NCBI GenBank assembly: GCA_015068865.1
Contig: SVJT01000003.1
Coordinates: forward strand, 1-37,003
Reading direction: 5' to 3'
Length of the DNA: 37,003 nt
From: Oscillospiraceae bacterium
GTDB lineage: Bacteria > Bacillota > Clostridia > UBA1381 > UBA9506
The first letter of the stretch is position 1. The number at the start of each line of letters is the position of its first letter. The position numbers and the translations under genes were made by a program. The notes below the pieces were generated by a model. It had not been told where the DNA came from and ran no database searches. It saw only the letters and a list, made by a program, of their open reading frames with translations. This document shows positions 1,591-22,325 of this stretch, in pieces.

Positions 1591-3369
1591 TTACTTCTTC
1601 GATACAAACACTGTCTTGTAGGTATTTTTAAATTTCTTTCTGAATTCTTCTGCAAAAGCATCCTTAACGATCGCAGGTTCTTCCTCTTCTTCGCTGCCCA
1701 TCTCTGCAAGCAGTTCTTTCACTCTTGCATCAACTTCTTCTGCGCCGCCGAAGAGATAACCCGGTTCAGCTGCTTCATCCTGTGTGTCATCAATATATTC
1801 GGTGGGTTCTGTGCCTTCCGGTGTAATAACCCAGTAGCCTGCCTTTGAATAAGCAAATTCTCTTTCGCCACTGGGCTCATAGATATAGCTGCCTTCGGGG
1901 AATTCAACGGTCTGCTGACCAATGCGGAAGGTTAAGGGATTGTCAGAAACCTTAAAGCTTTCAATCGTCGGAACATCAGCTGTTGACATATCCGGTGTGA
2001 TTCTCCACACATTCTTGCCACCGGCGCTCATACCGGTTAAAATGTAGCGGGAATCCCAGGGGGTAAAGTCTTTAATAAGTGTTTTTCTGTCCTCAAAGCC
2101 AATCATATAATCCAAGTCTTTTAATAGTTCAGAGAAAACAAGGTTATCATCAATACCTTCATTACCTGCCTCATAGTTATAGAACAGGAACTGGTCAGAC
2201 TCTAAAAGACCTAAGTGGTAGATAAATTCCTTGTAATAATCGGTAGCTGCAGCAGGGCCTCTGTTGTTATAGGACCAGGTGTAAGAGCCTACCCAGGGGC
2301 GGAAATACCGCTGACCGGGCAAGTATAACACATTTGACTGTGCAGACACCAGGTTCAGCAGAATTGTGTTAAAGGGTGTTGAATAATAGGTAGCATAAGG
2401 GTAATCCGGCGGTGGTGCACCCTCTAAGCCTTTGTCAACTCGTAAGTAAAAGTTGGGAGAAACGTGGGTTCCGCCAACAATTTTACGTTCTTCCATGGGT
2501 GTAGCCTCTCTGTACAAGCCATACATATGTCCGGCAGCAGAAGAGGTTCTGCTGGGCTCAGCACTGACCCCTGAGCCATAGTCGGAGAAGCTAATGTCAG
2601 GATAGTGCTTTTTCCACACCTGATAAACCTTTTCCATACAATTTTCCATAAACCACTCGCCTGCCCAACCAATGCCATTATATACATGTTGTTTTACAGG
2701 AGAATTCAATTCACCGGTATTGGCATACGCATAGAGGTGATACAGTTCGGGGTGGTCATCACCCTCATAAATGGGAATACCGTAATCAATAACACTCTGT
2801 CTGAGTTCGGGGTATCTGGGGTCAGTTTCTGCCAGCGCATAGTACTGATCCATTGTCATGCCACGTTTACTTGCATTACTTTCCTGATACCACACATTAC
2901 ATGCTGACTCGTGGTCGCAAACAACGGCATCAATAGGTTTGCCGCCTAACCGTTTGTAATAATAAATGATTTCATCCATCAATGCTTCATATTTAGGAAT
3001 ACCATCATACCAGAAAGCATTGGTTTCCGCTCTGGTACCCTCTGAAAGGGAGTTAAAGGGGTTAACAGCACGCTTGCCGTCAGGAATAGTGTCAAAATAT
3101 GTTTTCATTTTGCGGGCAGTTTCAATGGCACCGTCTTTATAGTTTACACGGTTTGCAGCCGTTGTAGCCGTATTTCTGAGGGTAAAGGGCTGATAGAGGT
3201 TATCAGCGCCGGAGGTTTTCTCCCAAACCCACGCAAAAAACGTGCCGCTTTTGCCCGGTGTAAAGTCATTGTCAACTGTTGTTGCCACTTCTTCAGCAGA
3301 TACTGCACATAAAGAAGCTATGCATAGTACAGCGCACAACAGTGCAGTCAATTTTTTAACAAGCTTCAT
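1591..3369 (-). CDS. Exported protein, putative hydrolase-like, paralogue of the 735-aa protein
   Basis: 592 aa with a clear Sec signal peptide (MKLVKK, hydrophobic core, cleavage near AVSA-EE). It starts at ATG 3369 behind a GGAGGCC-type site. The family is not one I recognise. It shares ordered landmarks with the 735-aa protein at 14766-16973: a Trp-containing first strand (FFAWVWE), KxKxYF, IDAVVCDHE (D152, E154), a DPRYPE segment, ELYHLYA, SDYGSG, PWVGSY, an FIYHLGLL helix and ILTGMSAGGKNVWRITPD. The pattern of strands ending in acidic pairs (VVCD-x-E) suggests a TIM-barrel glycoside-hydrolase-like fold with D152/E154 as catalytic candidates; this is inference. The C-terminal ~60 residues are acidic (SEEEEEP) and end in a basic tail. 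It is the last gene before the operon terminator, 21 bp after the solute-binding protein gene. Confidence 0.9.
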   Translation of the reverse strand: MKLVKKLTALLCAVLCIASLCAVSAEEVATTVDNDFTPGKSGTFFAWVWEKTSGADNLYQPFTLRNTATTAANRVNYKDGAIETARKMKTYFDTIPDGKRAVNPFNSLSEGTRAETNAFWYDGIPKYEALMDEIIYYYKRLGGKPIDAVVCDHESACNVWYQESNASKRGMTMDQYYALAETDPRYPELRQSVIDYGIPIYEGDDHPELYHLYAYANTGELNSPVKQHVYNGIGWAGEWFMENCMEKVYQVWKKHYPDISFSDYGSGVSAEPSRTSSAAGHMYGLYREATPMEERKIVGGTHVSPNFYLRVDKGLEGAPPPDYPYATYYSTPFNTILLNLVSAQSNVLYLPGQRYFRPWVGSYTWSYNNRGPAAATDYYKEFIYHLGLLESDQFLFYNYEAGNEGIDDNLVFSELLKDLDYMIGFEDRKTLIKDFTPWDSRYILTGMSAGGKNVWRITPDMSTADVPTIESFKVSDNPLTFRIGQQTVEFPEGSYIYEPSGEREFAYSKAGYWVITPEGTEPTEYIDDTQDEAAEPGYLFGGAEEVDARVKELLAEMGSEEEEEPAIVKDAFAEEFRKKFKNTYKTVFVSKK

Positions 3370-3390: not shown

Positions 3391-4857
3391 TTATTTGATT
3401 TTAAGCCATTCATCATACTGTTTCTGCATTTCTGCAAGGAGCTTATCAACGCCAGCGGCTTTCAGCTTCTCCATAGCCTTGGGCAGGGTTTCATCTGGAT
3501 CGGCAGTACCGGTCAGCAATGAAGGCATATATTCAGAAATAACGTTGGATACAGCTGAATATTCACTCTTAACATTAGCAGGGTCAAAGGCAAAGCCTAA
3601 TGCAGGAGATTTGATGGCATTTTCGTCAAATTCTTTATATTTATCATAAATATCGGCCGGTGTACCCTCTACCATTCTGGTAATGTACTTGTTACCCTGT
3701 GTGAATACATAGGTGTTGTAACCGGTTTCAGCCAGATTTTTGAATCCTTCGGGAATTTTATAGAAATCTTCGCCAACAGGTTCCCAGTGCTTGCCTTCAA
3801 TACCATAAGCAATTAAGTTTCTTAAATACTTATCAGTATTTAAAAGATTTAAAAATTCAACTGCTTTTTCAGGGTTCTTTGCTCTTCTGCCTAAAGACAT
3901 CATGGCACCGCGGGCATTTTGGGTACCCAGACGGGCTTCCCAGAGATGCAGAACTGAGTGCTTATATTTAGCTGTTACATTTCTCTGGTCTACCAAATAC
4001 GGCAACTCATCCTGCTGACGCATAAATTCATCGTTGATATCGTTGTTGTTATCAATGGTTGCAATTTCGGGACGCATAAAGCCCTGTTCATAGAAGCTAT
4101 GCATCATTTTGTAGTATTCCTTTGCTTTATCTGTATCAAAGGGATTTACAATTTTTGTGGGGTCGCCATCCATATCAATACAGCCTACGACACCGCCGGG
4201 AATTTTATCGAATCTTGTAATATCATAGAACGGTGTGTCGTTGTTGTTAAACACCAAAGGATAAATGGTGGGTTCGTTTTCCTTAATGGTTTTTAAGATA
4301 GGCTCTAAATCTTTAAATTCTTTTACTTTTGAAAAGTCAAGATTATATTTTTCTGCCAAATCGGTTCTGTAGTAGTAAACGGTTTCAGCTGCATAGTCCT
4401 TATAGAAAGGAATTGCATATAAAACTCCGTTGATTCTGGCAGCATCTAAAATATATTCGGGAACAAGTGTCTTTAAGTCTTTACCATATTCATCAAGATA
4501 GGGTTCTATGTCTAAAAAGCCCTTATTGGCTGAGTGAATTTCATACTGTGTTCCGGATGACATGAAGCAAAGGTCAAAAGGCTCACCGGAGGCAAGAAGG
4601 AGCTGAATTTTTTCGTTATATTCCGAACCTACAATGGGAACGTTTTTAACCGTTGCACCAATTTTTTCAGCCAGATATTTGTTTACTTCTTCATATACAA
4701 GCTTATGGTCCGGTGTTAATGCGCCTCTGTCGTGCCAAAAAATTTCAGGCAAGTTTCCATTAGCACCTTTTGATGTGTTACCGCCCCCAGCACAGGCTGT
4801 TAAAGAAAATACTAAAACAGCTGCTAAAAGACCGGCAATGAGTTTTTTCTTATTCAT
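3391..4857 (-). CDS. Extracellular sugar-binding lipoprotein, LplA/DUF3502 type
   Basis: 488 aa. The chosen start is the internal ATG at 4857 (MNKKKLIAG), because AAAGGAAG lies 5-8 bases upstream of it; the ORF-track start six codons earlier has no such site. The type II signal peptide ends in the lipobox LTAC (lipidated Cys22), so the mature protein is a membrane-anchored lipoprotein. The body fits family 1 extracellular solute-binding proteins that serve carbohydrate ABC importers. The C-terminal ~130 residues (ALGFAFDPANVKSEYSAV through the end) match the DUF3502 region typical of LplA-like oligosaccharide binders. Its partner permeases are encoded upstream in the same operon (13828-14739 and 8373-9326), and the ATPase is missing. 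The substrate cannot be read from sequence. Confidence 0.93.
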   Translation of the reverse strand: MNKKKLIAGLLAAVLVFSLTACAGGGNTSKGANGNLPEIFWHDRGALTPDHKLVYEEVNKYLAEKIGATVKNVPIVGSEYNEKIQLLLASGEPFDLCFMSSGTQYEIHSANKGFLDIEPYLDEYGKDLKTLVPEYILDAARINGVLYAIPFYKDYAAETVYYYRTDLAEKYNLDFSKVKEFKDLEPILKTIKENEPTIYPLVFNNNDTPFYDITRFDKIPGGVVGCIDMDGDPTKIVNPFDTDKAKEYYKMMHSFYEQGFMRPEIATIDNNNDINDEFMRQQDELPYLVDQRNVTAKYKHSVLHLWEARLGTQNARGAMMSLGRRAKNPEKAVEFLNLLNTDKYLRNLIAYGIEGKHWEPVGEDFYKIPEGFKNLAETGYNTYVFTQGNKYITRMVEGTPADIYDKYKEFDENAIKSPALGFAFDPANVKSEYSAVSNVISEYMPSLLTGTADPDETLPKAMEKLKAAGVDKLLAEMQKQYDEWLKIK

Positions 4858-4921
4858 AATATCTTCCTTTCTCATAAAGGTTCTGGGTTGATAAAGTTCT
4901 GGAGACTTCTCTCAAGGAGAA

Positions 4922-8372: not shown

Positions 8373-9326
8373 TTAACCCTTAACTGCACCAACCGTAATT
8401 CCGTTTACGAAATACTGCTGGAAGAACGGATAGAAGATAAGGATTGGTGTTACAACAGTTACAACCAGACACATTTTAAAGGTTTCGGTGGGGATATCCT
8501 GTTGCATTGCACTGACTGAGCCACCGAAATCTGCTGCATTTTGCTGCAGGAACTTGGTTTCGGTTTCAAGTCGCTGCAGAAGGAGCTGAATGGGAATCAT
8601 CTTTGTGTTAGATACAATGTATAAGAACGCTCTGTACCAGTCGTTCCAGAACATGGTTACCGCAAACAGCGCCATGGTTGCAATAATGGGAATACTCATG
8701 GGGAGAACGATTCTGAAGTAGCACAGGAACTCCCCTGCGCCATCCATTCTGGCAGACTCTACAACCGCATTGGGTATTGCCGTTTGCATATATGTTCTCA
8801 TCATAATAATATGCATCGTTGTGCAAAGCCCCGGAAGAACCAGTGCCCAGAACGAATCCTGCAAACCCAGCATCTGGGTATTGATAATGTATTTGGGTAA
8901 CATACCGCCTGAGAACAGTGTTGTGAAAAAGATGAAAAATGTAAACTGACTTTTCCACGGGAAGGAAGGACGTGAAATTGTGTATGCATACAGCGATTTA
9001 ATAAACAAGCTCAGCGTCGTTCCGACCACGGTAACCATAATGGTGACACCGTACGACCATAAAATCTGACCTGCATTCTGCATGATGTATTTATATCCTT
9101 CTAAGCTGAATTTTTCCGGAATCAGCTGATATCCGTTTGCCAGAATTGCCTGCTCATCGCTGAAAGACACAGCTACAACAAGCAGAAAAGGATATAAACA
9201 AGCAAACGCAAACAGTGTTGTGATGGTATAGGCTAATGCTTTAACAAGCACAGGCACATCGTAGATGGAATCCTTTGATTTGGGTTCAACAACGACTTGC
9301 CTTTTTTTAGAAATTACTGCTTTCAT
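8373..9326 (-). CDS. Carbohydrate ABC transporter permease (LplC/YtcP type)
   Basis: 317 aa, about six membrane segments, starting at ATG 9326 behind AGAAAGGAAAT. The cytoplasmic EAA loop that docks the ATPase is visible at about residues 187-206 (AVVESARMDGAGEFLCYFRI), followed by LPMSIPIIATM. The N-terminus is cytoplasmic and basic. The C-terminus ends in FVNGITVGAVKG, a typical ending for this permease class (binding-protein-dependent transport system inner membrane component). It pairs with the LplB-like permease at 13828-14739, from which it is separated by two SLH-protein genes; these are normally adjacent. The ATPase is presumably a shared MsmX-like subunit encoded elsewhere, as is usual in Firmicutes. 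Confidence 0.95.
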   Translation of the reverse strand: MKAVISKKRQVVVEPKSKDSIYDVPVLVKALAYTITTLFAFACLYPFLLVVAVSFSDEQAILANGYQLIPEKFSLEGYKYIMQNAGQILWSYGVTIMVTVVGTTLSLFIKSLYAYTISRPSFPWKSQFTFFIFFTTLFSGGMLPKYIINTQMLGLQDSFWALVLPGLCTTMHIIMMRTYMQTAIPNAVVESARMDGAGEFLCYFRIVLPMSIPIIATMALFAVTMFWNDWYRAFLYIVSNTKMIPIQLLLQRLETETKFLQQNAADFGGSVSAMQQDIPTETFKMCLVVTVVTPILIFYPFFQQYFVNGITVGAVKG

Positions 9327-9369: not shown

Positions 9370-12081
9370 TTATTTATAGATAATCATTCTTCTCGGGTCA
9401 CCGTAACGACGCCAGATGATCCCCTTTGTATAATCCCCTCCGCAGGTGAGGTAATCACGGATCTGGTAAGCAGTCGCAGGAGATACTTCATTCTTCACAC
9501 TATCATAAACAATGGCCTTTTTAAACACACTGTTTCTTGACAGAAGAACTAAGAACATATCTTCAGCATTTGCCCAGCTTTCACAAGGAACCAACGTTGT
9601 TGTGATATAGCTTCCGTCATACTGATAAACATTTAATCTTGTAGCATACATGCTTTCATTGGGGTGCCACATCTTGTTAATGTCACCATCATCGTTTGTG
9701 CCTAAGAATGTATCCGTTGAATAGTCATAAACTGCTTCAATCTTGGAAATCTCACCTTTAGAGTTTGTTGCAAAGCGGAAAATATCACCCTGATCCAGGC
9801 TGTGTGTTGTTACGTCATCATTAGATACGCTAACTCTGGTTAAATCAACACTGGAGTCAAGTGCTTTTGTGAGCACAGTACCTGCATCGGAATAGCGAAT
9901 CATTGTTGTGGGCTCGCCTTCTAAATTCAGGCCAACAACTTGTTCTAAGAACAAGTGAATTTGTGTTTCTTCAGGAATGCTAATTTTCTCTTTGCCGTTT
10001 TCCATTGAAATTTGTTTCACAATGAATTCGAAAGCCATGGTATTGGGGTCTGTTTTATATGCTTTACCAAAAACACTGGTGTTGCCGGAGGTCGCCAATG
10101 TGAAAGAGCCATAGAGCTCGTGAGATGCAGATGCATCTAAAATACCTTGATTGTTATAAGGAGCCTGCATCAGAACTGATTTGCCCAATGCATACCGGGG
10201 AGTTGTGGAGGAACCCACACCAAAAGCTCTGAATGCCGGATTGTAAAGCAGTTTTGTTGTTGTACCGTCATAAGCAAGGTAAAGACCAATCTGACCTTCT
10301 CTCTTGGGACCAACCAGGTCGATCGTGGTAATTTCCGCTTTATCATTTGTTTTAAAGCGTAAGGGCTGAGGAATAAAGGTTCCGGTTGCAGGAACAACAC
10401 CCTCACCGTCTTTATAAAAATGCTTCAGCGCATCTTTCGGATTTTTACATCTGATGCCGTCAATCACACAGTTATCTGCAATGTCAAAGTATTCAACCAA
10501 GCCCAGCTGTGTGTAAACTTTCAGCGTAACATCATCGCCTAATGCCTTCTCTACTTTCTCAGCAATGGCAATACCAAAGGAGAAATCAGACATATAGTTG
10601 CTGTATGTTACTGCCCAGGCGATTTTGCCAAAATGATTGAGTTTGAATGTATAGGTGCCGCCAACTTCACAGGGGGTAATCTTTGTATTGGCTACATAAT
10701 CATTAAAGACTTTTGCATATTCATACTTTGTTTCGCCAACAGTTAAATAGGTCTTATTATCATTTTCAATGCCCTTTACCATACCTGTTTCTGATTTGTT
10801 ACTCCGGTAAATAACAGCCTTTTTGTTTGTTGCGTCTTTTAAAACTGTGATAACATCATCTGCTGAAATGTCAATGAGCTGGAGTTTTTCACCGGTAGCA
10901 CTGTCATAAAAATCAATGGCATCATATTTGCTGAAATCAAGTGCTGTATCATATTTAGGATAAATTTTATTGTTTTGAGTATCAACTGCAGCAACAACAT
11001 AATCAACATAATTCAAAATGCTGACAACGTCATATTTACCGTCGTTGTTATTGTCAACAAAGTTAACCTCGCCCTGGTCGGGAACGGAAACAAAGCTTGT
11101 GCCTTCTGCACTGACTCCGTTATACAGAACAATGGCACCTGAGGTAGAAATTGTCTCTGTATCACCATCCTCATCTAAATATGTATAAACTCTTTTTGAA
11201 TAGCTTACAATATCGTCTGACGGAATGGTGAGAACTTCGTTTCTGAAGGGAGCAATAAAGAGAGTTTCTCTGTCTGCGCTATCTCCTTTATAATAGGCCT
11301 TCACTCTGTAGCCAAGGTACTCAGTACCCTTGCTGCCGCTTACACTATAGCCAACCCGGTTTATATTAATTATATTGCCTGCTGTTGCATTATCGTTGCT
11401 CAGCGCACCATATTTTGTTGCTGTCACAACACCATCTGCAACATAAATATCATGATATTCAGCTAACAATGTGTCGCCCTTTTCGTATAACACACCGCCA
11501 TTATCGCCTACGCCGGCTTCTATGATAACATTTGTCTCTAAACTGTTATCAATTAAGCGGTACATCATTTCTCTGCTGATGGTTCCATCCTCATTTTTGC
11601 TGATTCCGGAAAGAATCTTCGCTCTTTGCGCTGCCTCCATAAATGCCGCATCGCTATTACCTTTCATCATGGCATCGTAGCCTAAAAGATTAACCATCGC
11701 TTTAACAGCTTCAACATATGTAAGTTCGTTTGTCGGAGCAAAAAGACCCTCTTCGTTTGACATGAAGCCTAAGATGATTGCTGCGTTAATATAACCTGCT
11801 TCATAATAATCAGAAGATACGTCATAGGAATAATCAGTGTCAAAGTAGCCATATGCCAAGGTGTCTGCATCTGCAAGTTTGACCAAAATTTCTGCATATT
11901 CAGCACGGCTTACTTTACCTGCCGGATCCTGATTGATAGATGCTTCATCTAAAATCCCGATTTCCGCGAGGAACTGTATACTTGCCGGTTGAGTACTGTT
12001 TTCTTTTGCCATCGCTACTCCCGATACCGGAATCAGCATTAATGCAAGCAAAAGAGCTATCAGTCGTCTACAATGTTTCAT
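9370..12081 (-). CDS. Large SLH-domain surface protein (N-terminal SLH, 903 aa)
   Basis: Signal peptide MKHCRRLIALLLALMLIPVSGVAMA. Residues ~30-190 hold SLH repeats (LAEIGILDE, VSRAEYAEILVKLA, GYINAAIILGFMS, ELTYVEAVKAMVNLLGY, ISREMMYRLID), which anchor proteins to secondary cell-wall polymer. The remaining ~700 residues are predicted beta-rich, with no enzyme motif that I recognise. A DNNNDGKYD stretch (~343-351) and DEDGD (~303) look like calcium-binding loops. The ATG overlaps the stop of the upstream SLH gene (TAATG), with AAAGGAG inside that gene's end, so the two are translationally coupled. Likely a structural or polymer-binding scaffold on the wall; inference. Confidence 0.9.
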   Translation of the reverse strand: MKHCRRLIALLLALMLIPVSGVAMAKENSTQPASIQFLAEIGILDEASINQDPAGKVSRAEYAEILVKLADADTLAYGYFDTDYSYDVSSDYYEAGYINAAIILGFMSNEEGLFAPTNELTYVEAVKAMVNLLGYDAMMKGNSDAAFMEAAQRAKILSGISKNEDGTISREMMYRLIDNSLETNVIIEAGVGDNGGVLYEKGDTLLAEYHDIYVADGVVTATKYGALSNDNATAGNIININRVGYSVSGSKGTEYLGYRVKAYYKGDSADRETLFIAPFRNEVLTIPSDDIVSYSKRVYTYLDEDGDTETISTSGAIVLYNGVSAEGTSFVSVPDQGEVNFVDNNNDGKYDVVSILNYVDYVVAAVDTQNNKIYPKYDTALDFSKYDAIDFYDSATGEKLQLIDISADDVITVLKDATNKKAVIYRSNKSETGMVKGIENDNKTYLTVGETKYEYAKVFNDYVANTKITPCEVGGTYTFKLNHFGKIAWAVTYSNYMSDFSFGIAIAEKVEKALGDDVTLKVYTQLGLVEYFDIADNCVIDGIRCKNPKDALKHFYKDGEGVVPATGTFIPQPLRFKTNDKAEITTIDLVGPKREGQIGLYLAYDGTTTKLLYNPAFRAFGVGSSTTPRYALGKSVLMQAPYNNQGILDASASHELYGSFTLATSGNTSVFGKAYKTDPNTMAFEFIVKQISMENGKEKISIPEETQIHLFLEQVVGLNLEGEPTTMIRYSDAGTVLTKALDSSVDLTRVSVSNDDVTTHSLDQGDIFRFATNSKGEISKIEAVYDYSTDTFLGTNDDGDINKMWHPNESMYATRLNVYQYDGSYITTTLVPCESWANAEDMFLVLLSRNSVFKKAIVYDSVKNEVSPATAYQIRDYLTCGGDYTKGIIWRRYGDPRRMIIYK

Positions 12082-13808
12082 TATACTTCTCCTTTCTGTA
12101 TAATCGCATAAATGATTTTAGCAAGTTCTGCTCTGGTTATGGTCTTTTTAGGAGCAAACTGGTTATCGCCAACGCCGCCTAAAATATTCAGTTTCTTAAG
12201 TGAATAGATAGCCTCTTTAGCATAGTCTGCCATTTCACCATCATCAGCAAACTCTTCTGCTTCCATTTCAGGCATTTCTACTGTATCCTTTATCAATCTG
12301 TATATCATTGTTGCTGCATCTTCACGTGTAACGGCAACGCCTACACCAAATGCATCGCCCATACCTTTAATGATACCGTTTGAATACATATTGTTAACAT
12401 ATGAATAATACCAGGCTTCTTTATCTACATCTGCAAATTCAGGCAACTGTTCTTCGCCGTTACCTACTTTGAAGCCAAGGCTCAAAACTTTTGCCAGTTC
12501 TTCTCTTTTGAGAACATCATTGGGATAAAACTTACCGGGTTCTTTTCCGCTGATGACCTTCATTTCTGCAAGCGCTTCAATCGCATCCTTTGCCCAAGAT
12601 ACATTTTCAATATCAGAAAAAGCTGATGTGAGTGGAACCGGAGTTACAGTTGTATCAGGTCTGATTGCCACTGTACCGCCGCCACCACCGCCGCCAATAT
12701 TCGGCACAACCGGCGGAGCGACTACCGCAAAGGAAATATTGCTGTTGATTCTCTGAACAAAGTCAGTAACTGTGGTGGCACCAGATGCCAGATTCCACAA
12801 AGCTTTCTGATTTGTCGCATTTTCATAGTTTGCATCTAAACCGTGATTCGTTTTTAAGTAGTTTATAACCTTTCCAATAATCTGACCAACTTCGCCGTCT
12901 GTTGAAGCATTGGAAATAACACTCATAAACATTGCATCTGAAAATTTGTCAGCCAGTGCATCTTTATCTACATTTGTCTGAATTGATGCATTGAAGCCGG
13001 TAATCATATCGCTGATATTGGTTGCTGTATTATAAGGTTCTTTTGCAAACAGCTCCGTGTAGCATTCCAAAGATGCAATGCCAAGTTCTGCTGCCTTTGT
13101 TTTCATTGTGTTAATCTGATCCGTTTCGCTCATGGATAAAAATGATTCTACGAAAGCTGTTTTATTAAAGATATTCCATACATCAGCTTTCGTCTCAGTG
13201 CCATCCATTGCACAGAATTTGTATGCAAGATAGTCATAAAAGATATCCTTCTGTGCTGGTGTCATCTGATTGTACACGCTGTAATTGTCTGCTGAAGAAA
13301 GTCCTAATACTTCTTCGCCTTTCAAACCATCAAACTCAGTATCCGTAAAGAGCTTCTTGGTTCTGGCTACTGCAGTATCGCCATAGGTCATACCGGACAG
13401 TTCAAGAATCAGATTATTAACTGATGTTGTGGGAGCAAAGGGAATAGATTTCTCAAACTTTTTGTTAGCACGGGGAACATCTGCCGTAAAGGTATAAAAG
13501 CCTGCTCCACCGGCAATTTCAAAGCTGAAAATCGCATTGCCGTCTGCACCAACAGTTTTCTGAGCTGCGCCTGCCAAAACACTCTCCAGTGAACCGCCGG
13601 CTAAATTTGATGCTGATTTGCCGGGTCTGTAGAGCATTGCCATTACATCATAGCCTGCGTAGCCGGTGCCAACATCTACTGTAAATGTTATAGTGTCTCC
13701 CACCGGAGAAATGGTGACTGCTTCTTCCGTGTTGGCAAATACAACAGCTGTTAAGGAGTTGACTGCAATCAGCACAGAAATCACTAAAATTGATATTAGT
13801 TTTTTCAT
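12081..13808 (-). CDS. SLH-domain surface protein with poly-Gly linker (C-terminal SLH, 575 aa)
   Basis: The ORF track starts 28 codons too early, inside the permease gene. The real start is MKKLISIL at 13808, with GAGGAGGG just upstream and a good signal peptide (ends VVFA-NT). Residues ~30-140 are beta-rich (Ig-like; TITFTVDVGTG). Residues ~150-375 are mostly helical, with repeated Asp-Lys-Phe type segments and no known motif. A run of seven glycines forms a linker, and residues ~396-575 carry three SLH repeats (AFSDIENVSWAKDAIEALA, FADVDKEAWYYSYVNNMYSNGIIKG, FADDGEMADYAKEAIYSL). The anchor is C-terminal, the reverse of its coupled neighbour. The protein probably presents its helical domain on the wall; the function of that domain is unknown. 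Confidence 0.92.
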   Translation of the reverse strand: MKKLISILVISVLIAVNSLTAVVFANTEEAVTISPVGDTITFTVDVGTGYAGYDVMAMLYRPGKSASNLAGGSLESVLAGAAQKTVGADGNAIFSFEIAGGAGFYTFTADVPRANKKFEKSIPFAPTTSVNNLILELSGMTYGDTAVARTKKLFTDTEFDGLKGEEVLGLSSADNYSVYNQMTPAQKDIFYDYLAYKFCAMDGTETKADVWNIFNKTAFVESFLSMSETDQINTMKTKAAELGIASLECYTELFAKEPYNTATNISDMITGFNASIQTNVDKDALADKFSDAMFMSVISNASTDGEVGQIIGKVINYLKTNHGLDANYENATNQKALWNLASGATTVTDFVQRINSNISFAVVAPPVVPNIGGGGGGGTVAIRPDTTVTPVPLTSAFSDIENVSWAKDAIEALAEMKVISGKEPGKFYPNDVLKREELAKVLSLGFKVGNGEEQLPEFADVDKEAWYYSYVNNMYSNGIIKGMGDAFGVGVAVTREDAATMIYRLIKDTVEMPEMEAEEFADDGEMADYAKEAIYSLKKLNILGGVGDNQFAPKKTITRAELAKIIYAIIQKGEV

Positions 13809-13827
13809 AAAAAACCCTCCTCTATTA

Positions 13828-14739
13828 TTAGAATAATGAAATTTCTTTTGATACTTTTTTAGATACCCAGTTGGTGAACATAACCATTGCAAAGCCGACT
13901 ATTGACTGATAAAAACCTGCAGCAGCCGTTGCACCCATATCACCGAGTCCCGTCATACCGTTATAGATATATGTATCAAGAGTACTCGTTACCGAGTATA
14001 ACATACCGGAGTTTTTCGTAATAATATAATGCAGACCAAAATCACTTCGGAGTACGGAACCCATATTCATAATAAAGAGGATAACCAATGTGGGTTTCAG
14101 CATAGGAATGGTGATTTTTGTAATTGTTTGCCACCAGGTAGCGCCATCAATTTTTGCCGCTTCATAATACTCTAAATCAAAGCCTCGTATGGTTGAATAA
14201 TAAATGATACTGTTAAAGCCAACATTTTTCCACATTGACAAAATAATCAATATGAATGGCCAGACTTTTGGCTCCGCATACCAGTTGACCGCCTCGCCAC
14301 CAAAGGATTTGATTATATTGTTGAATACACCTTTATCTACACTGAGCAATCCGAAAACAAAATAGGAAATGACAACCCAGGATAAAAAGTGAGGTAAAAG
14401 AACAATCGTCTGATTAACTCTGCTGACTTTCGTTTTACCAAGCATATCGAACACAATTGCAAGAGATACAGCCAAAATAATACCTAAGAAAATACCACCG
14501 ACACTGTATAAAATTGTGTTTCTTGTAATTATGTAAGCGTCTGAGGTGTTGAACAAATACTCAAAGTTTTTAAATCCGACCCACGGGCTGCCAAAAATAC
14601 CGTCAACATAATTATAATCTTTAAAAGCAATGATGACTCCGAACATAGGAAGATAATGGAAAATGATAAACCATATGAAGCATGGTGCTGCCATTATCAA
14701 AAGCGGAAAATTTGCTTTAACATCTTTTAAAAATTTCAT
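13828..14739 (-). CDS. Carbohydrate ABC transporter permease (LplB type)
   Basis: 303 aa, about six membrane segments. It starts at ATG 14739 behind AAAGGAGAAAATT. The EAA motif for ATPase docking lies at ~193-212 (EAAKIDGATWWQTITKITIP). N-terminal FHYLPMFGVIIAFKDYNY is characteristic of LplB/YtcP-type polysaccharide permeases in Firmicutes. It precedes the SLH gene by 19 bp and follows the 735-aa secreted-protein gene by 26 bp, so it is well inside the operon. With LplC and the lipoprotein it makes an importer for an oligosaccharide of unknown identity. Confidence 0.96.
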   Translation of the reverse strand: MKFLKDVKANFPLLIMAAPCFIWFIIFHYLPMFGVIIAFKDYNYVDGIFGSPWVGFKNFEYLFNTSDAYIITRNTILYSVGGIFLGIILAVSLAIVFDMLGKTKVSRVNQTIVLLPHFLSWVVISYFVFGLLSVDKGVFNNIIKSFGGEAVNWYAEPKVWPFILIILSMWKNVGFNSIIYYSTIRGFDLEYYEAAKIDGATWWQTITKITIPMLKPTLVILFIMNMGSVLRSDFGLHYIITKNSGMLYSVTSTLDTYIYNGMTGLGDMGATAAAGFYQSIVGFAMVMFTNWVSKKVSKEISLF

Positions 14740-14765: not shown

Positions 14766-16973
14766 CTAATTTGCTTTTTCCAAATCTACCGAAGCCCCAA
14801 GAGGAACCAATCCATCACGATCATTCCATAAAAACAATTTGATGCTTTGAACCTTTTCGTCAATATCAGAAATTCTGTAGATTTTATAACCATCTTCACC
14901 GAAGGCTATACTGCCTTCAAATATGTTATGAACAAAGGCTAACCGTTTGCCGTCATCCGTATATCCGGCTGCAAAAACAACAGCATTTGCCATGTCGCCC
15001 GACAAGTTCTGATATGAAAATCTGACTGTTATATCTTCGCTGAACGCTTCACTATTCATCAAACCTGTCGTATTGTCAAACACATGAAAACTTGTAACAA
15101 AGTCACTCTCTATTTGTGTATAGTAATCATGGTCATAATTAATTTCAGGATAAACATTTACAGGCGTTTCTACCCAATAGCCGTTCTCTGCAATGCTCCA
15201 GTCATTTTCTATAATTTTACCTTGCGGGAAAGTTATTTCTGTTCCCGAAATTTCAAAAGTCGGTGTGCTTTTTTCTTTACAAAATGATTCAATTGTGTAA
15301 ACAGCTGCACCGTTTTCGTCAGTTAATTCTAAATTCGGCGTAATGCGCCAGATGTTTCTTCCATTGGCCTTCATACCGGTCAGGATGAAATCTGTATTCC
15401 AGGAATCCAGGCTTTCCGTCAGAATTTCTCTGTCAGGATATCCTGCCATAACATCCAGTTCTTCTAGACAAGCATTCAGCTTTTCCGCCTGCCCTATAAC
15501 ATAGTCATCCGCCTCATCATTATATCTTGGACCCCAGTAAAGAAAAACATCAGGATTCAAAAGACCAACATGGAAAACCATTTCATAATAATATGGCGTC
15601 CGTCCAAAATAGCTTTTTATTTTATAGGTATAACTTCCATCATCGTTTTGTTTCTCAATATCTCGGTAATCATAATTCGCAACCCATGGCATAAATCCGT
15701 TGTCCTCTGACAAGGTTATCCCTCTGGCACGGTTTACGTCATATTTTAACAGTGTATAGGCATCTCGTAAGTAATTCCCATCTGCATCCAGGTTTGCAAA
15801 CTGCAGATACTGTTTTTTAGAGTTGGCATTTAGCGTACCATATAAGGAAGAGGACGAATGGGTTCCTGCATAGGAGCCTTTTCCTGCTTTATAGCCATCA
15901 TGACCGTTGGAGGATATCATATGTGAACGTTCTCCCGCAGCATGACCATAAGCCGAGCTCTTTGCATCGGGATAATATTTTTTGACAACGTCAAACACGG
16001 CTTCATTCAAATAAGCTACTCTTTTATTGGTAATAACTGAATTCCACTTAAGTGAATTCACCGACCACGGTGATGCATAAAGATTATACAGCTCCGTCTC
16101 CGCATTATCAGAAAACTCAAAATTTCTTTCAACTAACTGAGGTCTTATCTCTGTAGCATATCGCGGATCGCTTTCAATGGCTTTAAACGGCTCGTATCGT
16201 TCTCCACCCGCATTTGTAATGTTGATTGACTTTGTTCTCAGATTGGAGGCATCCATCGGTGTAGGCTCAAAGTCACACACAACACCGTCCACCTGTCCGC
16301 CAATTTCCTTAAAGCTTGCAAAAAAGCTTTCCATATAACCTTTTAGCTCACTTACATCCCACCATAAGTAATTTTCGCTTTCATCATTAATAATACTGAT
16401 GAGTTTCTGCCAAACGATCATATATCGTCTGCCGACCGGGAAGTTTTCAAAATAAGCTTTTGCTTTTTCTGCCGATGCTTTAATTTTTTCTTCGTTGATT
16501 ACCCTTTTTGTGACATCGTTTTCCGTCACCTCATCACAGCAGTCAGAAAGCTTGATTCTATAGAACGGGAAAATATAGTCACTTTGATAATCGCCTGACC
16601 AGCTTGTTGCAAAAAACTGAGGATTAACCCTTGAAACATCATACGTTATATCATGACAGTTTGACATCCTGAGCGTATGATTCCCGGTACCCTCCGGAAT
16701 ATAGAAGCTTTCAGAAATTTCTCCGTTTTCATCCGCTGTAACTTGACCGATATAGCCTATGGAGCCTACATTAATATCATCATTTTCTCCGCTTCCGGGC
16801 TTAAAAAATAAAATAGCAACCTTAGCTCCTGAAACGGATTTCGCATTAACATTTACAATGACTCCATCGTCTTTTATCAGCACCGTGTTGTTTTGTGCAG
16901 CTTCTGTTTCAAACTGCATAAAACCCAGGGCGAGCAAAAATATACAGGTCATACACAAGATTTTTTTAAGCAT
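14766..16973 (-). CDS. Exported protein, putative hydrolase-like, paralogue of the 592-aa protein (735 aa)
   Basis: I place the start at ATG 16973 (MLKKILCMTC). GGAGGAGAAGG directly precedes it, and it overlaps the kinase stop by eight bases (ATGCTTAA). The ORF-track start nine codons earlier has no better site. Signal peptide ends near ETEA-AQ. Residues ~28-115 form an extra N-terminal beta domain missing from the 592-aa paralogue. Residues ~118-610 carry the shared core: FFATSW, KAKAYFENFP, VDGVVCDFE (D234, E236), ESDPRYATEIRP, ELYNLYAS, SSAYGHAAGE, MPWVANYDY, FHVGLL, ILTGMKANGRNIWRITPN. The C-terminal ~110 residues form a beta domain ending IKLFLWNDRDGLVPLG, like the tails of the 553- and 556-aa proteins. 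Enzymatic activity is inferred, not shown. Confidence 0.9.
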   Translation of the reverse strand: MLKKILCMTCIFLLALGFMQFETEAAQNNTVLIKDDGVIVNVNAKSVSGAKVAILFFKPGSGENDDINVGSIGYIGQVTADENGEISESFYIPEGTGNHTLRMSNCHDITYDVSRVNPQFFATSWSGDYQSDYIFPFYRIKLSDCCDEVTENDVTKRVINEEKIKASAEKAKAYFENFPVGRRYMIVWQKLISIINDESENYLWWDVSELKGYMESFFASFKEIGGQVDGVVCDFEPTPMDASNLRTKSINITNAGGERYEPFKAIESDPRYATEIRPQLVERNFEFSDNAETELYNLYASPWSVNSLKWNSVITNKRVAYLNEAVFDVVKKYYPDAKSSAYGHAAGERSHMISSNGHDGYKAGKGSYAGTHSSSSLYGTLNANSKKQYLQFANLDADGNYLRDAYTLLKYDVNRARGITLSEDNGFMPWVANYDYRDIEKQNDDGSYTYKIKSYFGRTPYYYEMVFHVGLLNPDVFLYWGPRYNDEADDYVIGQAEKLNACLEELDVMAGYPDREILTESLDSWNTDFILTGMKANGRNIWRITPNLELTDENGAAVYTIESFCKEKSTPTFEISGTEITFPQGKIIENDWSIAENGYWVETPVNVYPEINYDHDYYTQIESDFVTSFHVFDNTTGLMNSEAFSEDITVRFSYQNLSGDMANAVVFAAGYTDDGKRLAFVHNIFEGSIAFGEDGYKIYRISDIDEKVQSIKLFLWNDRDGLVPLGASVDLEKAN

Positions 16974-18759
16974 CCTTCTCCTCCATTCCTTCATCTTCAA
17001 TTACCGGAAGTTTAAGCACTGCCATTGTTCCTCCGCTTTCACTATCCTGATAACTCAATCCGTATTGTTCACCAAACTTTATCTTGATTCGTCCATTCAC
17101 ATTTTTAATTCCGATTTTTTCTTTAGAAAAAACGCTGCTATCGCCTGCAATATATCGGTTAAGCAATTCCGTGTCACAGCCGAAGCCATTATCCGATACA
17201 CAAATGACCAAATGCTCTTGTTTGATTACCGCATTGATTGTAAGCTGGTTTTGACCTTCCGGCTTAATCGCATGAATGATAAAATTTTCAACAAGAGGCT
17301 GAACAACAAATTTGGGAATCAGAAGATTTTGTATCTCATCATCCATTTCCATTTTAAAAACGAATTTATCTTTATGGCGCATTTCCTGTAGTTTCAAATA
17401 CCCCAAAATAAACTTCATTTCCTCACGCAGGCTGATTAAATCATCCGTTTGCTTTACACTATAGCGAAATCCGTTTGACAGCACATCAATCATCTCGGCT
17501 ATTTCATCTTCGCCTTTATCCAAAGCCATCCAGGAAATAGAATCAAGAGCATTATACAGAAAATGCGGATTAATCTGTGCGCCAAGAACCTTCATTTCCA
17601 TTTCTTTTTCTTTTTTCGCACTGTTTTCAGTTTCTTTTAAGAGATGATTTATCTTTCCAAGCATTAAAGAGAACCCTTTGTACAGTTCTTTTATTTCTAC
17701 CGTATTCCATCGGCTCCCCTTGGGCATTCTGTTTTTTTCGCCACCAAACTCTGCCATTGTTTTGCTTAATTCAACAATTGGGCAGGAAAGATAATTTGCC
17801 ATAATATTTGCAAAGAAGATTAAAACAGCCAGAGCTATAATGACAATTAAAAAAACGTATTGCAGCATATTAGAGAACTTTGCAGATACATATTGAGTTT
17901 CAACAAAGGAAAATATGTTTATACCAAAGTTCATCGGATACGAATTCGAAAGAAAACTTTCACCGTCAATCTTTATTTTCGTGAATTTTTTATGACTCAA
18001 AATCGTGTCCGTATAGTCTAAAAGCCTTGCATCTTCTATAAAATCGGCTCCGCAAATAACGTTTTTATCTTCATCAACGATTGCCAGATGCACAGCATCT
18101 TCCATGTTTTTGCTGTTATACTTCAAAAGCAATTCTTTAAGATTCAGTTCAATAATATTAATGCCTAAAATAGTTCGATCGTAAGAAACATTATCATAAA
18201 TCACCTGAGCAAAAAATATACTGTCAGGAAATGTTTCATCATAAAAAGAGACGATATTTTCTCCCAGATACTCTTGTTTGACATTTGTAATTTCCTCTAT
18301 AGTTTTAGAGCTTTTATACATATACGTCTCATATTTCTCAAATGCGTCTATATCTGTAAATTCTAAAACATATTTTGCAAAAGGAGCATTGGCGTTAACT
18401 AAAAATTTAGGAGTGACAATACTTGTTGAATCTGAAAAATATACATCAAAGAGTCTCTTATATTCCTGTTTTACCTCTTCTGCCGCAAAAACCAACTCCG
18501 TTGTTGACTGATAATCCTGTTTAATCTGCCTGACGATGTTTTCATCAAAGCTTATCTGATCGTTAAACCGCTGTATGTCAGACATTATATTCTCAATTTC
18601 TGTAGTACAGTTTTTTATATTAAAATCAATTTCATCAATGACAAACTCCGTCATTCTGCTATAAAAAAAGGTATACATAACAGAACCAATGATGATGGTT
18701 GATAAAAGCACAAAACAAACCAAAAAGATAAACAGTTGCTGTTTAATACTCAGTTTCAT
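16966..18759 (-). CDS. Sensor histidine kinase, YesM family (597 aa)
   Basis: The preferred start is ATG 18759 (MKLSIKQQLF); AAGGGG lies seven bases before it, while ORF-track starts further up sit on top of that site. Two membrane segments (about 9-32 and 299-322) flank an extracellular sensor domain of ~265 residues, and a HAMP-like stretch follows. The His_kinase domain has the phospho-acceptor in AQINPHFLYNALDS (H399), the N box PLVENFIIHAI (N492) and the G box DNGFG (523-527), typical of the LytS/YesM class. It overlaps the response regulator by 17 bases, so both are co-translated. Such pairs sense extracellular sugars or polymer fragments and control a nearby importer; the ligand is unknown. 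Confidence 0.96.
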   Translation of the reverse strand: MKLSIKQQLFIFLVCFVLLSTIIIGSVMYTFFYSRMTEFVIDEIDFNIKNCTTEIENIMSDIQRFNDQISFDENIVRQIKQDYQSTTELVFAAEEVKQEYKRLFDVYFSDSTSIVTPKFLVNANAPFAKYVLEFTDIDAFEKYETYMYKSSKTIEEITNVKQEYLGENIVSFYDETFPDSIFFAQVIYDNVSYDRTILGINIIELNLKELLLKYNSKNMEDAVHLAIVDEDKNVICGADFIEDARLLDYTDTILSHKKFTKIKIDGESFLSNSYPMNFGINIFSFVETQYVSAKFSNMLQYVFLIVIIALAVLIFFANIMANYLSCPIVELSKTMAEFGGEKNRMPKGSRWNTVEIKELYKGFSLMLGKINHLLKETENSAKKEKEMEMKVLGAQINPHFLYNALDSISWMALDKGEDEIAEMIDVLSNGFRYSVKQTDDLISLREEMKFILGYLKLQEMRHKDKFVFKMEMDDEIQNLLIPKFVVQPLVENFIIHAIKPEGQNQLTINAVIKQEHLVICVSDNGFGCDTELLNRYIAGDSSVFSKEKIGIKNVNGRIKIKFGEQYGLSYQDSESGGTMAVLKLPVIEDEGMEEKDA

Positions 18760-19777
18760 CCTCATGCCCCTTTTCATAAGACATTGTTCTGTACTGTGTT
18801 GGTGTTCTGCCCATGCGTTTTTTAAACACCCTCATAAAATAGCGTATATCACTGTATCCAACTTTGTTCGCTACCGCCGAAACATTCATATCAGTTTCCA
18901 GGAGAAGCTCAGCAGCTTTCATAATTCGATAACTGATAATCCACTCTGAAAGAGAGCTTCCATTTTCCGATTTAAAGAGCATCGATAGATATTCACGAGA
19001 CAGGTTAAAGCTATCTGCTATATGTTGAACATTTAAGTTGTTGTCACCATAATTCTCGTTAACATAGGCGATGATTCTTTTGGTCATTTCTGCTGATTTA
19101 GAACCCTGTACAGCAGAATGGCTGTTATATAAATTCTCCAGAAGCTTTTTTCTGCATTCTTCAACGCTCGAAGTAGCAACAACCTGTGCCATCAGAGCAT
19201 TTTTTTCATCCGTATTTGTGTTCGGAAGAAAATTAATCAACGTAATACAATATTGTTTATATAAAGTCAGATTGGAAAACCCCTCATCAGGCACTAAAAT
19301 ATTGGCAATTCTATTATAGTCATGAGATAAATAAGCATCTACAAAATTGCCCCTGAACTCATTTTTTATCATACCCGACATGATTTTTTCCGTCATATTT
19401 TTTTCGGTATTCAGTTTTTTTACAAAAGTCTCAATTTTAGAAAGCTTTTCTCTTGTAATCGGTTTTATAATATATTCTTTAACGCCTAAAGAAATTGCTT
19501 CCTGTGCATACTCAAATTCAGCATAGGCACTCAGCAAAATTGTATTGACGGCAATTCCCTTATTGTATAGATATCTAAGCAATTCAAAACCATCCATAAC
19601 CGGCATTCGAATATCAGAAATAATCAAATCAACATCTACTTCAGCCAGTTTATCTATTACCTCTTGTCCGTTTGCCGCAAGAAATATAACCTCAGCACCG
19701 AGTTCTTTCCAGTTAATATGATTCAGGAGACCACTGCGTACAGAATAATCATCATCAGCTATAATAACGCTTATCAT
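18743..19777 (-). CDS. Response regulator with AraC-type DNA-binding domain, YesN family
   Basis: 344 aa, first gene of the operon. GGAGGAG lies five bases before ATG 19777. The receiver domain (1-~120) has acidic residues D8-D10, phospho-acceptor D55 in IISDIRMPVMDG, S83 and K105 (IIKPI). A helical linker follows. The C-terminal ~100 residues form two helix-turn-helix units of the AraC/XylS family (VQHIADSFNLSREYLSMLFK and AVANKVGYSDIRYFMRVFKK). Phosphorylated by the overlapping YesM kinase, it would activate the importer operon, including itself. Direct binding sites are not obvious in the 270-bp upstream region. Confidence 0.97.
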   Translation of the reverse strand: MISVIIADDDYSVRSGLLNHINWKELGAEVIFLAANGQEVIDKLAEVDVDLIISDIRMPVMDGFELLRYLYNKGIAVNTILLSAYAEFEYAQEAISLGVKEYIIKPITREKLSKIETFVKKLNTEKNMTEKIMSGMIKNEFRGNFVDAYLSHDYNRIANILVPDEGFSNLTLYKQYCITLINFLPNTNTDEKNALMAQVVATSSVEECRKKLLENLYNSHSAVQGSKSAEMTKRIIAYVNENYGDNNLNVQHIADSFNLSREYLSMLFKSENGSSLSEWIISYRIMKAAELLLETDMNVSAVANKVGYSDIRYFMRVFKKRMGRTPTQYRTMSYEKGHEDETEY

Positions 19778-20048: not shown

Positions 20049-22325
20049 CTACTGAGCAAGGTACTGATCAGCCAGTTGTTGAATACCCTTCATATCTTCC
20101 TGTGATGCAAAGATTTGCGGAAAGTTTGTAGTGGCATTATCATAAACATAATAGTCTTTTACATACTTGTCAAAGTCAAACTCACTGCTCAGCGTCGTAT
20201 CACCACAGAAAGCATACTCCTGACCGACAGCACTTTCTCCCGTTGCCGCACAATAGGCCATAAGAGCAGTCACATAGCCTGTCAATAGATTGGGATGATG
20301 TCCGTCTGTTTCAGACAGAGCCACAATAAAGCTGTTTTTATTGTATTCTTCCTTTGCGCCAGGCACTTTTACATTGCCATTTGCAATATCCACAACCATC
20401 TTACCCCAGTTCACAACCTTAATATCCGTATCTTTAAAGGCATCAACATATGCGTCACCGTCTATATTAGAAAAATAATAAGAAGACGGGATTAGAATAA
20501 AGAATTTGGTATCAGGGTTGACTTCTTTGAATTTTTCAGCTAAATTCATCGCATTTTCCGGATTGGCATTTTTTAAAGAACCTTCTTGCATAAACACATA
20601 ATCAAAATCGTAGTCAGTAAAATGCGTCAGATGGTCTAAGCCCTTACATTCTCTGTCCGCTGTACAGGTATGAGAAAAAATATCTTTCAAAGCGTGTCCG
20701 CCCCATGTCCAGTTGGTAACAGCAGGCTCGGCACCATTTGTTTTGGCCAGTTGGTAGAAATAACCCATATCGTTCCGTCTGGTTGAAAGTTCTAAAACCG
20801 TTCTGGATTTTCTGAAAACAGTGTAGCCGTGAAACGTCATGGAATTACCGATAAAGAGAACTTTTTTACCGTCTAACGCATGTCTTTCATAGATCTTCGT
20901 TGCAACATTCTCCCCTGACTTCATATCGGCATATAAAGCATTATGGAGAATAATGGCAACATCGCCACGAGTCAGCTCTTCTTTGTTATCCTGCGCTTTA
21001 ACATTATCTGCCATTCTTAATTTTTTGGCTAAATTCACATAACCTTCCGGATAGGTTAATTCAGCATTTTCTTCATAGCCTAAGGCTCTTAAGCAAATGG
21101 TAAAGCAATCCTGAAAGGTAATGCCGCCTTTCGGATTAAATTCACTTTTTGAAACGCCTTTAATGATTCCCTTTTCGTTTGCCCAGGAAATCATACCATA
21201 GAATTCCGGTGTAGTAACATCTGTAAATGCAGAAGTGTTTTCACCGTTTTCTAAGGACTCCCCTTTATTCATAAAACGATAAATAAAGGCAGCCATCTGC
21301 TCACGGGTTACCGGTTCCTTTTCACCAAAATAGCCTTCTGCCATACCTTTGGCAATACCCAGAGTGTTCAGGCGGTCAATGGCTTTATCCAGTTCGGGAT
21401 TTTCTTCAACAAAAACACCGTCTAATGCTACTTCATCAGAAAGTGCATTGCCGTTTTCATCCAGCCAAACATTGCCGGATACATCCACGCGAGTTTTTAC
21501 ATAGCAGAGATAAGGCTGTTCTGCAATGCGCTTTTTCAGGGTGTTGTTTGCAAATGTTACCGGGCATTTTACGTTGTTTAAATTCACCATACCCTCATCA
21601 GCACCCACGCCGCTGATGTCATTGCCTGTAATCACAATCGCAGGATCATCATCAACATCGTTAACTGAGGTTTCATCTACATTCACAAGCTGAATGGCAT
21701 TCCAGGAAACATTTTTAATAATGTTATCGGAAATCGTGATACAGCCTGCAGCAGAACCAAGACGTACACCGGTGTTGAATCCACCGGAAACATTGTCTAT
21801 AATATTGTTGGTAAAGGTGAAATTTGTCATTTTTTCAAGAACGGCCTTTTGTGCATATTCAAAAGCAGGACGGTTCTTATCCGGTGTTAAAATATTCTTA
21901 AACTCGCAGTTTGTAACGGTCCAGTTTTTGAACACCGAATTACCTTTGCCGTTTGATTTCATTGCAATGTAGGTATTATCAAACACAATGCCGTCAATGG
22001 TGATGTCCGTATAGTTAATGATGTCACCGGTTGCCGAGGCAATAATGGAGTTTTTTAGAACTGTAGCCTTATCAGGAGCGCCTTGTAAGGTTACCTTGTG
22101 AAGTTCAGGAGGTAACACAACCTTGCCCTGTTCAAAAGTACCCTCTGAAAGCTCAATGGTGTCGCCTTCTTTGGCTGCCATCAAAGCATCTGCCAGGCTT
22201 GTATATTCTACCTCACCAATTGTTGCAAGCACCTGCAAATCCTCCTCAGCAAAAGCATTAAAACTTATAGAACAAAAGGACATAATCGCTACTAAAACAA
22301 CTGCAAAAAACCTATTTAATCTCAT
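20049..22325 (-). CDS. Secreted fusion: beta-helix domain, SLH repeats, SGNH-type hydrolase (758 aa)
   Basis: The signal peptide ends at NAFA-EE. Residues ~30-290 form a right-handed parallel beta-helix of the pectate-lyase-like/DUF1565 kind (YTSLADALMAAKEGDTIEL, GTFEQG, then runs of ITIDGIVFDN, FTNNIIDNVSGG, ITISDNIIKNVSWNAIQL). Residues ~300-470 are three SLH repeats (AIDRLNTLGIAKG, VTREQMAAFIYRFMN, FTDVTTPEFYGMISWANEKGIIKG). Residues 486-758 are an SGNH hydrolase: block I VLFIGNSMT (S495), GGHAL, and the Asp-x-x-His pair in TDGHHPN (D674, H677). This combination would place an esterase or deacetylase and a polysaccharide-binding or lyase-like helix on the wall through a central SLH anchor. 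It is transcribed alone. Confidence 0.9.
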   Translation of the reverse strand: MRLNRFFAVVLVAIMSFCSISFNAFAEEDLQVLATIGEVEYTSLADALMAAKEGDTIELSEGTFEQGKVVLPPELHKVTLQGAPDKATVLKNSIIASATGDIINYTDITIDGIVFDNTYIAMKSNGKGNSVFKNWTVTNCEFKNILTPDKNRPAFEYAQKAVLEKMTNFTFTNNIIDNVSGGFNTGVRLGSAAGCITISDNIIKNVSWNAIQLVNVDETSVNDVDDDPAIVITGNDISGVGADEGMVNLNNVKCPVTFANNTLKKRIAEQPYLCYVKTRVDVSGNVWLDENGNALSDEVALDGVFVEENPELDKAIDRLNTLGIAKGMAEGYFGEKEPVTREQMAAFIYRFMNKGESLENGENTSAFTDVTTPEFYGMISWANEKGIIKGVSKSEFNPKGGITFQDCFTICLRALGYEENAELTYPEGYVNLAKKLRMADNVKAQDNKEELTRGDVAIILHNALYADMKSGENVATKIYERHALDGKKVLFIGNSMTFHGYTVFRKSRTVLELSTRRNDMGYFYQLAKTNGAEPAVTNWTWGGHALKDIFSHTCTADRECKGLDHLTHFTDYDFDYVFMQEGSLKNANPENAMNLAEKFKEVNPDTKFFILIPSSYYFSNIDGDAYVDAFKDTDIKVVNWGKMVVDIANGNVKVPGAKEEYNKNSFIVALSETDGHHPNLLTGYVTALMAYCAATGESAVGQEYAFCGDTTLSSEFDFDKYVKDYYVYDNATTNFPQIFASQEDMKGIQQLADQYLAQ

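Follow-up and report, generated by a model that had tools for sequence, protein, structure and literature searches.

Several described systems provide points of comparison for the locus reported here. Endo-A, an enzyme of family GH85, acts by substrate-assisted catalysis, in which N171 orients the 2-acetamido group of the substrate and E173 serves as the acid (PMC2646837). The GH50 enzyme Aga50D uses an Asn533-Glu534 pair together with the nucleophile Glu695 (PMC11079163). In Streptococcus pneumoniae, the binding protein NgtS binds the Man5GlcNAc that is released by the GH85 enzyme EndoD (PMC5215778), and host-glycan use is governed by the two-component system TCS07 (PMC7075642).

The window analysed here, which comprises 37,003 nucleotides of contig SVJT01000003.1 from a gut bacterium of the Oscillospiraceae (GCA_015068865.1), resembles the pneumococcal N-glycan uptake system (NgtS, EndoD and TCS07) in encoding an ABC transporter together with a two-component system. 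From the response regulator, which begins at 19777, to the left window edge, all genes lie on the minus strand, and they include the YesN-like response regulator (18743..19777), whose DNA-binding part is of the AraC type; a YesM-like sensor histidine kinase with His_kinase and HATPase_c domains (16966..18777); the gene of a 735-aa exported protein (14766..16973), whose start overlaps the kinase gene by 8 bases; two sugar-type ABC permeases (13828..14739 and 8373..9326); an extracellular solute-binding protein with SBP_bac_1 and DUF3502 domains (3391..4875); and the gene of a 592-aa exported protein (1591..3369). The first-pass annotation, which named no strand, had placed the two exported proteins at opposite ends of the operon, which is a fair description, as the 735-aa gene comes third and the 592-aa gene is followed by only one more gene in the window. 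The nearest solved relative of the solute-binding protein is the pneumococcal N-glycan-binding NgtS (E 9e-69). However, with a residue offset of 23 derived from Trp81 and Trp386, which are mutually consistent, the alignment replaces Trp386 of NgtS, the residue that stacks on Man-GlcNAc, by Tyr and Trp81 by Gly, so that the same ligand is not implied. A further difference from the pneumococcal system is that GH85 was not found in the source genome, nor GH38 in any of the four genomes that carry the protein family described below; GH20 was found in two of these. The hypothesis of N-glycan use was set aside because of the changed NgtS contacts and this distribution of GH38 and GH20.

The open reading frame at 14766-16973 encodes 735 amino acids plus a stop codon and begins with a signal-peptide-like N-terminus, and its ATG, with AGGAATGGAGGAG just upstream, is likely the start of the gene. 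The protein comprises the signal peptide; an N-terminal, beta-sandwich-like accessory part (residues 28-115, 16629..16892), for which an Ig-like fold would be a guess; a core domain common to all homologues (residues 116-612, 15138..16628); and a C-terminal accessory part (residues 613-735, 14769..15137), all on the minus strand. The 735-aa and 592-aa proteins display 28% identity and 44% positives over 523 aa (BLASTP, E 6e-45), a similarity far beyond chance by which they are true paralogues. The same landmarks were observed in both proteins and in the same order, namely VVCDFE/VVCDHE, DPRY, ELYNLYA/ELYHLYA, PWVANY/PWVGSY and HVGLL/HLGLL, followed by ILTGMKANGRNIWRITP in the 735-aa protein and ILTGMSAGGKNVWRITP in the 592-aa protein. 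Paralogy, the ordered landmarks, the export of both proteins and the residue numbering D234/E236 and D152/E154 had all been put forward in the first-pass annotation, and the comparison bears them out, with the signal-peptide-like start of the 735-aa frame supporting export.

No credible Pfam, NCBIfam or PDB match was detected for either protein by sequence and profile searches, in agreement with the earlier statement that no named glycoside hydrolase family was recognisable, and the sole Pfam or NCBIfam matches in the family are the SLH anchors of some relatives. The family was found in four genomes, belonging to two genera of one taxonomic family, among several hundred sampled across Bacillota. 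Whole-genome searches exhibited orthologues of both the 735-aa and the 592-aa protein in a second genome of the source genus (G017). Two genomes from another genus of the taxonomic family (G006 and G007) contain several further, more divergent members. At the order level (95 genomes), only scraps in SLH regions were observed beyond the four carriers, and the class sample (391 genomes) and the phylum sample (399 genomes) gave, besides the source genome, only short matches with E values from 2e-4 to 0.01; the family is therefore rare in the sampled genomes. A contig scan with two exact peptide patterns drawn from a two-row alignment returned a single match, JAFQAZ010000028.1, a goat-caecum MAG record that is itself the G017 contig, and no relative was found among viral contigs or plasmids. 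The family is thus small, narrowly distributed and so far unnamed in Pfam, NCBIfam and PDB. Pfam models are lacking for many recent CAZy families, and the proteins may belong to one that is already described but has no Pfam or NCBIfam model, in which case the mechanism favoured below would be unaffected and the family would not be new. Such membership is considered unlikely, as homologues were detected in no more than four genomes among the several hundred sampled from Bacillota and no sequence-profile match to any PDB chain was obtained, a search that would miss families without solved structures.

Both types of protein were found in all four carrier genomes, and a maximum-likelihood tree divides the family into class A, which consists of the 735-aa protein and the G006 and G007 members that carry the N-terminal extra part found in this class only, and class B, which consists of the 592-aa protein and members mostly bearing C-terminal SLH repeats. 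In the class B relatives of the other genus, these repeats stand where the 735-aa protein has residues 613-735. The split between the classes is supported at 100/99 in a midpoint-rooted tree with flagged long branches, in which only this bipartition is firm, and the separation of the classes, as read from these sequences, predates the split of the two genera. Between the source genome and G017, the dN/dS ratios are 0.10 for class A and 0.22 for class B, and both classes are therefore under purifying selection. In G007, the set of response regulator, sensor kinase, two permeases and solute-binding protein accompanies members of the family, and the shorter contigs of G006 carry part of it. A third, incomplete family member was observed at a contig end of G006 (L019:15125-15755, plus strand), directly after an SLH-bearing member, indicating tandem copies in that genus.

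The candidate catalytic motif of the 735-aa protein is D229-G-V-V-C-D234-F-E236 (16266..16289, minus strand), the sole D-x4-D-x-E in its core, and its equivalent in the 592-aa protein is D147-A-V-V-C-D152-H-E154 (2908..2931, minus strand). Each of the ten full-length members has D-x4-D-x-E once, always at the same aligned position. Between D234 and E236 the residue can be F, H, L, N or D, a variability that points to the Asp and the Glu themselves as what is conserved. Further invariant core positions, either ionisable, polar or aromatic, are Y342, Y378, W430, Y461, E464, H468, D475 and R543. The invariance of the pair upholds the earlier choice of D234 and E236 as the best catalytic candidates, and the family probably cuts complex sugar chains by means of this conserved Asp-x-Glu pair.

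The context of the motif in the 735-aa protein, VDGVVCDFE, was set beside YDGVNIDFE and MDGVDLDWE from sampled GH18 sequences and FDGWFINQE from sampled GH85 sequences, all of which have the same layout. Like the GH18 chitinases and endo-beta-N-acetylglucosaminidases, the family has a helix immediately followed by D-G-V-x-x-D-[FW]-E and is suspected to form a (beta/alpha)8 barrel; unlike GH18, it lacks the first Asp of DxDxE, has a long insertion after the motif and ends in a different C-terminal beta domain. In terms of the GH18 signature DxxDxDxE, the position of that missing Asp is occupied by V, I or Y, while D229, D234 and E236 are kept, and no profile match above the curated cut-off places the proteins in GH18 (PF00704). 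The layout D-G-x-x-x-[N/D]-x-E is likewise shared with the GH85 endo-beta-N-acetylglucosaminidases. However, Asp-x-Glu stands in the family instead of the catalytic Asn-x-Glu, hhalign does not align the motif with GH85 or give a significant score, and no Pfam match to GH85 (PF03644) was obtained; GH25 (PF01183) also gave no profile match. In profile-profile comparisons by hhalign with shuffle controls against GH18, GH85, GH42 and GH25, GH18 was the only family whose best match fell on the motif and in register, with a score that is not significant, being reached by 1/60, 4/60, 6/60 and 13/60 column shuffles under four settings. HMMER searches with the GH18 and GH85 models gave nothing convincing at the motif. 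The motif layout of the family resembles GH18 and GH85 more closely than the Asn-Glu dyad of clan GH-A, but the profile comparison is not significant. No GH18, GH85 or GH25 was found at the cut-offs used in the source genome, which is 81% complete.

The structure prediction that had been suggested at the outset was carried out with AlphaFold from four-row alignments, and it yielded mean pLDDT values of 47.3 for the 735-aa core and 42.6 for the 592-aa core, too low to place the acids relative to a cleft. The low-confidence model of the 735-aa core displays an alternation of helices and strands followed by a beta domain, and its best-scored stretch (residues 91-110, pLDDT 71-89) is the helix that immediately precedes the motif strand. 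The strands proposed from model and sequence would be FFATSW, YIFPFYRIKL, RRYMIVW and DGVVCDFE for b1 to b4, and AKSSAYG, AGTHSSS, FMPWVANY and DVFLYWG for b5 to b8. In Foldseek searches against the PDB, the 735-aa core model (pLDDT 47) gave no match at E<=0.001; its E values were no better than 0.007, with a TM of about 0.2, and the matches were mostly TIM-barrel glycosidases, with GH50, GH30, GH5 and GH53 mostly in the top rows and GH18 chitinases lower, while those of the 592-aa core model (pLDDT 42.6) were near noise. A TIM barrel, as the first-pass annotation had proposed, is plausible for the family in that the order of helices and strands and the weak Foldseek neighbours fit it, but it cannot be proved from models with these pLDDT values.

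The Foldseek ranking would also suit a glycosidase of clan GH-A, similar to GH50, GH42 or GH30, in which E236 at strand 4 would be the acid/base and a further Glu the nucleophile. The best matches of the low-confidence model are the GH50 exo-beta-agarases (PDB 4bq2-4bq5, E 0.007), and some relatives have DNE at the motif, comparable to WQIDNE and WQTDNE of sampled GH42 sequences. However, the family has neither the conserved Asn-Glu dyad of GH50 nor another catalytic Glu where one would be expected: the residue before the acid/base Glu can be F, H, L, N or D and it is the Asp two positions before that is conserved, no invariant Glu lies near PWV on the proposed strand 7, and the sole other invariant Glu, E464, is 228 residues further on in a predicted helix. 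Moreover, hhalign to GH42 leaves the motif unaligned, and this assignment is considered unlikely. A barrel that is non-catalytic or degenerate, binding glycans at the cell surface and handing them to the transporter, would fit the SLH anchoring of several relatives, the retention of both paralogous types in one cluster and the lack of a Pfam or NCBIfam match to any known enzyme family, but it is improbable, as D229, D234, E236, E464, H468, D475 and R543 are invariant at about 25-35% identity, which is typical of an active site.

The family is probably enzymatic, and on balance we favour secreted glycosidases that are new to Pfam, NCBIfam and PDB and feed a glycan ABC transporter, with E236 as the acid/base and D234 assisting. 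In their most likely form, such enzymes would be (beta/alpha)8 glycoside hydrolases followed by a small beta domain, in which D229-x4-D234-x-E236 would end the fourth strand of the barrel. The general acid/base would then be E236, assisted by D234, in the manner of GH18 or of Asn171 and Glu173 in Endo-A, and the nucleophile, by analogy with Endo-A, would be the substrate's own 2-acetamido group. Outside the cell, the 735-aa and 592-aa types would attack one glycan at different bonds or chain positions, and import of the products would fall to the binding protein and the two permeases encoded alongside, controlled by the two-component regulator. A bolder and rather doubtful version is a new DGxxxDxE glycoside hydrolase family that supplies endo-acting N-acetylhexosaminidase activity to a genome in which GH18, GH85 and GH25 were not found; its two ancient subtypes would act together on a single glycan of host or dietary origin and feed an NgtS-like transporter. 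Should the proteins prove to be glycosidases, they would establish a new family of sequences among gut Clostridia, with two natural subtypes for the comparison of specificity, and in the case of an N-acetylated substrate they may be additions to the endo-glycosidases for trimming glycoproteins; as it stands, this is a good candidate family with a predicted activity.

Several other genes of the window were also observed. The minus-strand frame at 3-1514, cut by the window edge, encodes residues 1-504 of a 1141-aa protein that is complete at L023:1493-4918 (minus strand) and has no signal peptide and no credible Pfam or PDB match; the final third of this protein resembles the domain after the barrel in GH42 enzymes. 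Its NPDFKRADYGS resembles YPDAKSSAYGH of the 735-aa family, with a score reached by 1/150 shuffles, and the protein is possibly a distant relative of that family. The frames at 4975-6645 and 6678-8339 (minus strand) encode exported paralogues with 35% identity, only a weak Big_5 match and relatives in the G006 and G007 clusters. The copy at 4975 displays about 55% identity between the source genome and G017, as against 86-96% for its neighbours, indicating unusually fast evolution or replacement. Beside the transporter, SLH-repeat proteins, with weak repeats in the first, are encoded at 9370-12081 and 12081-13892 (minus strand) and are conserved in the clusters of the other genus. The 758-aa protein at 20049-22325 (minus strand), whose only Pfam match is SLH, exhibits a part that resembles a right-handed beta-helix, followed by the SLH repeats and then by an SGNH-hydrolase-like part (KVLFIGNSMTFHG).
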